Positions 7,077 through 30,828 of a stretch of DNA of 46,099 nt are shown here, one piece after another. Within the stretch, counting starts at the first letter, position 1; every line of letters starts with the position of its first letter. The notes under the pieces were generated by a model. The model had not been told where the DNA came from. It made no database searches and was given only the letters and a program-made list of their open reading frames with translations. Position numbers and translations under genes: made by a program. Source of the DNA: Methanobrevibacter sp. (lineage in GTDB: Archaea; Methanobacteriota; Methanobacteria; Methanobacteriales; Methanobacteriaceae); assembly GCA_024689425.1 (NCBI GenBank), contig JAILDN010000021.1, positions 1 to 46,099 on the forward strand, given 5' to 3'.

Positions 7077-7805
7077 ATAAAGGTAGTTGCACCAATGGCG
7101 GGAATAACTGATGCTGAATTTTTAAATAAAATTATTCCTTATGGATTTGATGCAGTTACTTTAGGTGGATATAGCTTGGATGAAAAAACTATTGAAGCAT
7201 CCGAAAAGATAATTCAAAGAGGAAGAAAAGAATTCCATTTTGAACTTGATGAAGTAATTCCCCATATTGAAAAGGAAGTTAATTTAATTAAAAAAAATCA
7301 TCCGAATGTCCGTGTCAGTGCAAATGTCCGCTCAACAATACCAGAACCGATAATTGAAGCTTCCAAAATTAAAGACTTAGATATCATTGAAATAAATTGT
7401 CATTGCCGCCAAGAAGAAATTATTGCTATCGGTTGTGGTCAGGAGATGTTGAAAAGAGATGATTTCTCATCTTACATTTCTGAAATTGTTGATAATTCAG
7501 AAAGTGATGTGTCCGTTAAGATTCGCGCAAATGTCGATGGCGTAGATACCTTGAAAACCGCAAAAATCATTGAAGATGCGGGTGCCGATTACTTGCATTT
7601 GGATGCCATGGACCCTACTGTTTTTGATGCTGACTGGAAATTACTGGAAAATGTTTGTAAAAATACGAATATTAAAGTCATAGGCAATAATTCAATTGAT
7701 TCAGTCGAAAAAATAAGAAAAATGTATGATTGTGGAGTATATGGATTCTCAATAGCTCGTGCAGTCATTTCAGGATCTTTAAATTTTGATATTTCTAATT
7801 TTTAA
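7077..7805 (+). CDS. NifR3/Dus-like TIM-barrel protein, apparently ATA-initiated
   Basis: About 242 residues of an FMN-type TIM barrel related to the NifR3/dihydrouridine synthase group. The first strand reads KVVAPMAGITDAEF, close to the APMAGvTD motif of that group; INCHCRQEE, SVKIRANV, ADYLHLDAMDP and VIGNNSI follow as successive strands. The usual C-terminal tRNA-binding domain of Dus is absent. The ribosome binding site GGGGGA (7066-7070 region) is 6 nt before an ATA at 7077; the only canonical in-frame alternatives are a TTG at 7035 with no binding site, inside arfA, or an ATG at 7095 that deletes the first strand. In some methanogens this barrel is fused to marker 9, encoded here at 10265. 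Substrate unknown. Confidence 0.82.
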   Translation: MKVVAPMAGITDAEFLNKIIPYGFDAVTLGGYSLDEKTIEASEKIIQRGRKEFHFELDEVIPHIEKEVNLIKKNHPNVRVSANVRSTIPEPIIEASKIKDLDIIEINCHCRQEEIIAIGCGQEMLKRDDFSSYISEIVDNSESDVSVKIRANVDGVDTLKTAKIIEDAGADYLHLDAMDPTVFDADWKLLENVCKNTNIKVIGNNSIDSVEKIRKMYDCGVYGFSIARAVISGSLNFDISNF

Positions 7806-22628: not shown

Positions 22629-23264
22629 TTATTTCTTCGATTTCGCAAAAAATGTAATAAAAATTCCAAATAATGAAAGTAAAATTAATGAGAGAGGATT
22701 TCCTGCTTTATATGTGGATTTTAAAAAATTAACTGGTTTTGCTGGTGGATAGTATTCAACGTCGATTTCTTCTTCTTCATAACTTTCATTTTCATTTAAA
22801 TTAATAGAAGTGCAGGTTAAATTAGCTTTGTTGATTTTTTCTCCAACGGTTATGGCTTTAGTTTTAATGTATAAAAATACTTCGCCATCGTTAACTGACA
22901 AATCTCCGATATCCCAAATCTCGGTTTTTGGATTAAATGTTCCTTTAGTTGTAGTGTGACTAACATAAGATAATCCTTCAGGTAACTGATTATATACGGT
23001 TACACCTTTTGCTGTTTCATTACCTAAGTTTATTACACTAACTTCCCATGTGACTACTTTGCCAATTTTAATGTTTTCTTTATCGGCATCGTTATCCAAT
23101 ACCAAAAAGGATGCTGTGTTTGAAGTATTTTGAGTTACGGGGTTTGTATTTGGGGTTGATTGTAATTCACCTGTTGAATTTCCAATATTTTCCGCGTTAA
23201 CACAAGATAAACTCAAAAGAGCCATAATACATACTAATAGCAGTATCAAAATCTTAGATTTAAT
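22629..23264 (-). CDS. Small DUF11 surface protein, apparently ATT-initiated
   Basis: About 211 residues if started at ATT 23264. A signal peptide (KSK then a long hydrophobic stretch ending in SCVNA) leads to one DUF11 beta-sandwich repeat (about 50-150; VTWEVSVINLGNETAKGVTVYNQLP), a short acidic and Pro linker, and a C-terminal membrane helix with a FAKSKK tail. This is the plan of methanogen adhesin-like proteins but with a single repeat. The first canonical start is TTG 23249, which removes the basic n-region and lies 21 nt from the perfect GGAGGT (23276-23271); ATT 23264 lies 6 nt from it. Function is probably structural or adhesive at the cell surface. Confidence 0.8.
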   Translation of the reverse strand: MKSKILILLLVCIMALLSLSCVNAENIGNSTGELQSTPNTNPVTQNTSNTASFLVLDNDADKENIKIGKVVTWEVSVINLGNETAKGVTVYNQLPEGLSYVSHTTTKGTFNPKTEIWDIGDLSVNDGEVFLYIKTKAITVGEKINKANLTCTSINLNENESYEEEEIDVEYYPPAKPVNFLKSTYKAGNPLSLILLSLFGIFITFFAKSKK

Positions 23265-23414
23265 TAAAAAACCTCCTTAAGTATTTTAATACTATATGCT
23301 ATTATTATTCAAACAATAATATAAACACTATGGAAAAGAGATTCACCTTTGATTCATAAAAAGCACATATATTTGCCCAATGGGCTGATAAAAAATAATT
23401 TTGAGTAGTTCTTA
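23265..23414 (-). promoter_or_regulatory. Promoter and leader of the DUF11 protein gene
   Basis: Holds the GGAGGT at 23271-23276 and TATA-like AATATAGTATTAAA and ATAATATTGTTTG stretches on the - strand (about 23285-23325). The rest, down to the top6A terminator, shows nothing recognisable. Confidence 0.4.
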
Positions 23415-28197: not shown

Positions 28198-29421
28198 TTA
28201 ATTTCTTTTTTTTTTAATCGTTTTATTTTCCCACGTAGAGAATTTATATCCGTTTTCAGCATATTCAATATTTTCTATTGGCACTAAAGGTACTTTACCA
28301 AGGCCCTGTGGTGCATTATATACATATGTAGGTTTACACATACCGCTTGTTCTGCCTTCTAAGTGTTTCATAATCTCCAAACCTTTAGAAATGTCAACCT
28401 GGAAATGTTGTGTACTTTTAATATCTTTTGGATGGAACAGATAATATGGGATTACACGATACTTTTGCAATTTTTCATTGGTCTTTTGAATACAGTATTT
28501 ATCGTCATTGACATTATGCAATAAAACCATCTGGTTTCTTACAAGTACTCCATGGTCGACTAATGTTTCAATTGCCTTAACAGCTTCTGGAGTAATCTCG
28601 CATGCATGATTAAATTGTGTTGAAACTTGCACTTTATATTTTCTAAGTAACAAAGCAAGTTCATTATCAATTCTAAATGGAAGAGTTGCCAATGTTCTTG
28701 TACCGATTCTTATTATTTCAACATGGCTAATGTTGGATAGCTTATCGAATATGTTTTTTAATTTATCATTGGGTAATAATAATGCATCTCCTCCCGTAAT
28801 TAATACTTCTCTGATTGTCTGATTATTTTTAATAAACTCTATTGATTCATCAATGTCTTTTTTAGAACTATTTTTATCTACATTACCTATTAATCTGCGA
28901 CGTTGGCAGTGTCTACAATACATGGGACAAGCATTAGTAACATTGATAATTAATTTATTGGGATATCTTCTGGTTATTTTTCCTGAAGGATTGGATTGCT
29001 CTTCATTCATCGGATCCAATTGTCCAAATTCATTGAATTCCCTGATGTCCGGAAGGGATTGCAATTTTATCGGACAATTCGGATTGTCAAAATCAATCAA
29101 TGAAAAATAATATGGAGTTATTGCAAACCTATATTTTTCACTAACTTTTTCTATATTCTCATATTCTTCATCTGTAAAGTTAGTGTATTTCGAAAGTTCG
29201 TCTACATTACAAATTCGATTTTTTAATTGCCATTTAGGATTGTTCCAATCTTTTTCACTTGCACCTAATTCTTGTAAAATTTTATTTTTAGTATTGGCAT
29301 ATAATTTTTTAGAAAATTCACTAAATCCTGTCCTAACATTTGATTTATGTGTTATATCATCAATAGCTATTTTATCAAGTTCATTTGAACGTATTAATGA
29401 TTTTTTTCTATTGATATTTAT
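28198..29421 (-). CDS. Lysine 2,3-aminomutase-like radical SAM enzyme, apparently ATA-initiated
   Basis: About 407 residues if started at ATA 29421. The N-terminal part (DWNNPKWQLKNRI, then ITPYYFSLID) matches the usual KamA opening; the radical SAM cluster motif is CPMYCRHC (C165, C169, C172) and the PLP lysine candidate is in APQGLGK near the C-terminus. The first canonical start is TTG 29100, which would delete 107 homologous residues; the frame is open to a TAG at 29440-29442. GGGGT (29429-29433) lies 7 nt before ATA 29421. Reaction is probably alpha-lysine to beta-lysine, known for osmolyte acetyl-beta-lysine, but no AblB acetyltransferase is nearby, and specificity is not certain. A frameshift near the start is the alternative. 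Confidence 0.82.
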   Translation of the reverse strand: MNINRKKSLIRSNELDKIAIDDITHKSNVRTGFSEFSKKLYANTKNKILQELGASEKDWNNPKWQLKNRICNVDELSKYTNFTDEEYENIEKVSEKYRFAITPYYFSLIDFDNPNCPIKLQSLPDIREFNEFGQLDPMNEEQSNPSGKITRRYPNKLIINVTNACPMYCRHCQRRRLIGNVDKNSSKKDIDESIEFIKNNQTIREVLITGGDALLLPNDKLKNIFDKLSNISHVEIIRIGTRTLATLPFRIDNELALLLRKYKVQVSTQFNHACEITPEAVKAIETLVDHGVLVRNQMVLLHNVNDDKYCIQKTNEKLQKYRVIPYYLFHPKDIKSTQHFQVDISKGLEIMKHLEGRTSGMCKPTYVYNAPQGLGKVPLVPIENIEYAENGYKFSTWENKTIKKKRN

Positions 29422-29552
29422 ACTATCTACCCCATTTTCCTAATTTTTTTTAAATATATTTATTAATTGTTCATTTATTGATATATTTTTTTATCTATAT
29501 ATATATCCTTTTGATTCATGAAGTTCAATTACAATCTTGATTTCATAATGCA

Positions 29553-30525: not shown

Positions 30526-30828
30526 TTACATTTTTAAGTAACCTTTTCTTTCGAGCCAGTTTGACTCGGTTTTGGTGTATCTCCAAATCACGTCTCCTTT
30601 TTCGTCAGTTTGGAAATCCCATGGTTTTACAAGGATAACGTCTCCTTCACGAATCCAAATACGTTTTTTCATTTTTCCAGGGATTCTCGTCATTCTGATA
30701 TGTCCGTCTGCACATCTGACTTTTAGTTTTCCATGTCCCATGATTTGTTCAACTACACCAGGTATTTCTCCCTTTTTAGGTGTTCTTACTCTTCTATATT
30801 CTTGTTGATTATTATTATGTTTAGACAA
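30526..30828 (-). CDS. eif1A: Translation initiation factor aIF1A
   Basis: A 100-residue S1/OB-fold factor that binds the A site of the small subunit and helps start selection with aIF1. Core motifs EIPGVVEQIMGHGKLKV, ADGHIRMTRIPGKMKKRIWI and GDVILVKPWDFQ are typical. A strong GGAGAG precedes ATG 30828. It is the first gene of the - strand unit aIF1A-RIO1 and diverges from moeA across a 104-nt TATA-rich gap. Confidence 0.97.
   Translation of the reverse strand: MSKHNNNQQEYRRVRTPKKGEIPGVVEQIMGHGKLKVRCADGHIRMTRIPGKMKKRIWIREGDVILVKPWDFQTDEKGDVIWRYTKTESNWLERKGYLKM

Follow-up and report, generated by a model that had tools for sequence, protein, structure and literature searches.

The question raised by this locus is where translation of a kamA-like gene begins when the first ATG, GTG or TTG of its frame lies deep inside the part that resembles the enzyme family. 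In the window, by which we mean the whole analysed stretch of 46,099 nucleotides from Methanobrevibacter sp., the open frame covers 28198-29439 on the minus strand, with its stop codon at 28200-28198. The first of the three canonical codons in the frame is TTG 29100, which lies 113 codons into the frame and 107 codons past an ATA at 29421-29419. The features at issue are the following.

28198..29421, minus strand: kamA-like coding sequence of 407 residues, running from ATA through the stop codon; radical SAM enzyme resembling glutamate 2,3-aminomutase.
29419..29421, minus strand: probable ATA initiation codon, the same codon in 21/21 orthologues.
29429..29433, minus strand: Shine-Dalgarno (SD)-like GGGGT, followed by the spacer AGATAGT up to the ATA.
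29440..29442, minus strand: TAG stop that closes the frame ahead of the ATA, with zero canonical codons from TAG to ATA.

The original prediction, that the frame is open from the TAG at 29442-29440, that no canonical start precedes TTG 29100 and that 107 codons follow the ATA before it, was borne out, and GGGGT with its spacer was located as stated, at 29433-29429. Measured against normal starts in the same genome, this SD-like element is close to the usual register, one base off the commonest one. The 5' part of the frame, which had been taken as coding, aligns with 20 orthologues at 78–88% identity, its third codon positions varying and its first and second positions mostly constant, and the glutamate 2,3-aminomutase model aligns from frame residue 10, three codons after the ATA; this claim is thus upheld as well.

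The product passes the model for KamA family radical SAM proteins (TIGR00238) with 297.4 bits against a cut-off of 199.2, and the iron-sulfur motif CxxxCxxC is found as CPMYCRHC or a close variant in 21/21 orthologues. Glutamate 2,3-aminomutase (TIGR04368) is still the best family, with nearly the whole model matched, although its 498.7 bits lie under the cut-off of 650, so that the product is not a formal member; the model for lysine 2,3-aminomutase AblA (TIGR03820) gave 357.2 bits, below its cut-off of 525.4. Counted along the alignment with 2a5h, a lysine 2,3-aminomutase of solved structure, Asp293 of that enzyme is replaced by Lys and Asp330 by Asn. The motifs carrying these two residues, FHPK and PTYVxN, are each present in 21/21 orthologues. 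We take the Lys and Asn pair to be typical of glutamate 2,3-aminomutase, and the product is most likely a KamA-type radical SAM enzyme of this kind. Beta-glutamate is a known solute of methanogens.

A family search of 138 genomes, 67 of them from the genus, identified the kamA-like gene in 21, including the source genome. All carriers belong to Methanobrevibacter, and the copies found include those of 14 named MAGs of uncultured members of this genus, of which one bears the label goat jejunum and another water buffalo reticulum. In all 21 orthologues, including those of two single-contig genomes (G014 and G029), ATA occupies the equivalent site behind an SD-like sequence, and the initial proposal that ATA initiates is therefore well supported. 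At 14 of the 21 loci there is no canonical codon within 16 codons upstream or before an in-frame stop, 11 being closed by a stop, and in L005 and L025 a stop is found three codons before the ATA. The other seven loci have a canonical codon in frame 3–5 codons upstream and may therefore use a canonical start; in L022 this codon is a GTG, and in L008, L011, L012, L027, L028 and L029 it is an ATG that falls within the SD-like sequence.

Counted from its right end, the leader is G-rich from −13 to −9, with G at −6 in 20/21 sequences and T at −4, A at −3 and a pyrimidine at −1 in 21/21; farther upstream, conservation is mostly much lower than near the ATA. The leader has no Rfam match, and its consensus folding gave no structure, the column-shuffled control being likewise zero. 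Within flanks of up to 1.5 kb, a KH or RIO1 gene is close to kamA in only 7/21 loci (L001, L002, L003, L005 and L021-L023); the neighbours differ, indicating that the start travels with the gene. On a tree inferred with the first codon left out, parsimony counted 0 changes at the ATA; each of the 16 further columns with isoleucine in every sequence changed 3–9 times (mean 5.4), and none of them keeps a single codon. Considering that 26 of 405 ungapped columns are free of any third-position change, the invariance of the ATA alone is uncommon, not unique, and the case is made by its position, the SD-like sequence and the lack of alternatives together. On this evidence, all of it from sequence comparison, the ATA is most likely the start of kamA, and the loss of a start or an indel is the less likely reading.

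A sequencing or assembly error, or a recent real indel, in the G run could have pushed an ordinary ATG out of frame. The ATG in question lies at 29435-29433, one base from the place first reported (29436-29434, which reads AAT); a one-base change in the G run would set it in frame, and the source genome is a draft of 113 contigs. The suggestion that the start had been lost by a small indel nevertheless fails, because 20 further orthologues, two of which come from single-contig genomes, carry ATA, because the sequence upstream differs among the relatives and conserves no ATG, and because a stop three codons above the ATA closes the frame in L005 and L025. The orthologues refute this explanation at the level of the gene family, and we regard it as extremely improbable.

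Initiation at the upstream in-frame ATG or GTG, with ATA as a plain isoleucine codon, might apply to the seven loci that carry such a codon. It is nonetheless very unlikely, since 14/21 orthologues lack one, the ATG falls within the SD-like ATGAGG, and an isoleucine codon should vary in the way seen at 16/16 of the other all-isoleucine columns. The remaining option is a start at the next canonical codon with the stretch upstream untranslated, as gene finders confined to ATG, GTG and TTG would call it, at TTG 29100 or at an ATG at codon 23 that the alignment places in 13/21 orthologues. The coding constraint at codons 2–30 speaks against such a start, as does the truncation of the source-genome protein, which would lose 107 residues with a match to the enzyme family, and an SD looked for at TTG 29100 was not found; we give this reading hardly any credence.

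Initiation at the ATA is thus the reading that we prefer, and it is very probable that kamA is translated from AUA placed by the SD and decoded by the initiator tRNA, as one case of low-frequency starts at AUH codons (AUA, AUU, AUC) in gut Methanobacteriaceae. In the proposed mechanism, the SD-like GGGGTAGAT would pair with the 3' end of 16S rRNA and position the 30S subunit on the AUA, which the ordinary initiator Met-tRNA (anticodon CAU) would accept in the P site even though the third position is mismatched, so that Met would be the first residue of the 407-residue KamA-type radical SAM enzyme. AUH starts behind a good SD also appear in pheA, in the MJ0144-type dus-like gene and in genes for secreted adhesin-like proteins, and the AUA may be retained because a weak start keeps expression low or responsive to the stringency of initiation, which involves aIF1. 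We considered a changed genetic code in which AUA stands for methionine and rejected it, because AUU and AUC serve as starts too and AUA alternates with them at conserved isoleucine columns. As to a special initiator tRNA, a scan of 800 kb of G014 turned up a single CAU tRNA and none with UAU.

The locus had been presented as an oddity of a single gene, a view that does not hold, since the comparison finds other genes in the family with similar starts. The gene pheA is present in 65 of the 67 genus genomes, and its start was read in 63: 31 have AUH only (16 with an in-frame stop), 5 have AUH with a canonical codon farther upstream, 17 have GTG or TTG in reach, and 10 have ATG. In L247, L261 and L275 a stop immediately precedes the ATT or ATA. 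Outside the genus, 30 genomes were read: by rule, 8 were assigned AUH only, 15 ATG, 2 GTG/TTG or a distant ATG, and 5 neither, the last group having longer N termini; L302, tallied as AUH, is doubtful since it shares the longer N terminus. In most species of the genus (L215-L243, L245-L278), a long T run lies directly upstream of the SD in the pheA leader, possibly an archaeal terminator or attenuator. The second family is represented in the window itself.

7077..7805, plus strand: gene resembling dihydrouridine synthases, of the MJ0144 family (TIGR00736); AGGGGG precedes ATA 7077-7079, the probable start.

A TTG in the same frame stands 14 codons before this ATA. In the best 30 of the 64 genus genomes with a match, scored against a G014 query, 13 loci start with AUH and 17 with ATG, a share of AUH that is biased upwards because the query is itself an ATA case. 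Of the 13 AUH loci among these best 30, 10 have AUH only with a stop, and 3, including the window, have a canonical codon 13–15 codons above the conserved part. The nine loci of other genera comprise 5 with ATT, 2 with ATG and 2 without a reading. The position behaves like a start codon, as it shifts among ATA, ATT and ATG at or beside one place; for both pheA and the dus-like gene, many species have ATA or ATT and sister lineages have ATG.

In a wider scan, each gene contributed one site, defined by the SD with the best spacing ahead of its first canonical codon; the sample comprised stretches of four finished genomes (800 kb of G014 and 400 kb from each of G029, G033 and G079) and the window, 1,593 genes with kamA excluded. 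With rising SD threshold, AUH codons occupied 28/96, 15/37, 10/12 and 6/6 of the sites over a background of 13.6%; in the strongest 12 SD cases, 10 sites fell on ATA, ATT or ATC against a background of about 14% (P about 1e-7). Over 12 threshold pairs without kamA, P ranged from 0.12 to 1e-7, the weak values having few sites, and genome by genome, with few sites each, from 0.02 to 0.17. The first run with one site per gene gave 17/39 AUH (P 4e-6), a value that was not pre-planned because this design was picked after earlier scans. A looser scan ranked ATA second, with several control codons scoring alike, a further early scan yielded P values of 0.02 to 0.009 for AUH, and no AUH enrichment was seen when sites downstream of canonical codons were admitted.

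Secreted proteins are represented in the window by one further candidate.

22629..23264, minus strand: secreted protein with DUF11-type repeat (frame 22629-23276); AAGGAGG precedes ATT 23264-23262, the probable start.

Its leader reads AAGGAGGTTTTTTA ATT, and a hydrophobic signal-like stretch begins right after the ATT. AUH codons followed by a signal-like stretch were also found in adhesin-like or secreted genes of G014 (295080 ATC, 1525296 ATA and 277540 ATA), G033 (1093999 ATT and 745596 ATT) and G079 (385559 ATT). At another signal-peptide gene (L080:8659-11082; G014 2068659-2071082, plus strand), the best SD-spaced upstream codon is ACG. The CfbD gene (TIGR03282) was dropped as an ATA case, since an in-frame GTG or TTG lies four codons upstream in 28/30 loci and an ATG in the other two; its start is probably the GTG or TTG.

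How strongly such starts are used may depend on aIF1, which is reported to destabilise complexes on non-AUG mRNA (PMC6237735). As aIF1 is present, the AUH genes would be expected to be weakly, perhaps conditionally, expressed. The factor was identified in G000, G011 and G014, and its gene starts with ATG in 11 genus loci read (L214 and 10 of 11 stretches, a tally that excludes L313), leaving autoregulation through aIF1 unsupported. A search for aIF1 (SUI1) found none in 15 of the 28 genus genomes searched, several of them at least 90% complete; these absences probably reflect an assembly gap at one locus in drafts. A putative initiation factor 1A frame in the window (30526-30828, minus strand) starts at TTG 30828, with GGAGGAG upstream.

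Bacterial infC has an AUU start codon, and other rare AUU and AUA starts exist. The likeness to infC lies in an AUH codon kept across species behind a good SD, whereas the archaeal ribosome works with aIF1 and aIF2 and has no IF3, and the genes found here are metabolic or secreted, the initiation factor aIF1 itself having ATG in the loci read. For archaea, one report infers an ATT start for an Asgard tubulin gene (PMC13394414), which concerns a single gene in one lineage, whereas the AUA and AUU starts described here are traced through several gene families in dozens of genomes. A strain mutation that changes the start of Halobacterium nadA from ATG to ATA is described in PMC11834397. The start codons listed in a review of archaeal initiation from 2020 are AUG, GUG and UUG, and the words AUA and AUU do not occur in it (PMC7531240). 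No report of AUA or AUU starts in Methanobrevibacter was found in the literature covered, most subscription papers lying outside this coverage.

Why the codon is kept is a matter on which we are far less confident than on its use. AUA could be the start and yet be conserved as part of an overlapping regulatory element, or simply be tolerated, with weak initiation bringing no benefit. The T at −4 and the A at −3 are as invariant as the ATA, and the drift of pheA and dus-like starts among ATA, ATT and ATG suggests tolerance; the lack of an Rfam match for the kamA leader stands against an element. We consider this explanation plausible, if somewhat short of an even chance. Our tentative proposal, which we place just under even, is that AUH codons in gut Methanobacteriaceae form a standing, selected class of weak starts, at about one gene in 100, that would couple expression to the stringency of start selection; as part of the same proposal, the class would take in metabolic genes, among them pheA and that for glutamate 2,3-aminomutase, and many genes for secreted adhesin-like proteins. 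Conserved AUA and AUU starts in culturable methanogens would provide a natural test of aIF1 discrimination, and gene calls limited to three start codons would trim or drop N termini in well-studied gut archaea, in the present case 107 codons of an enzyme.
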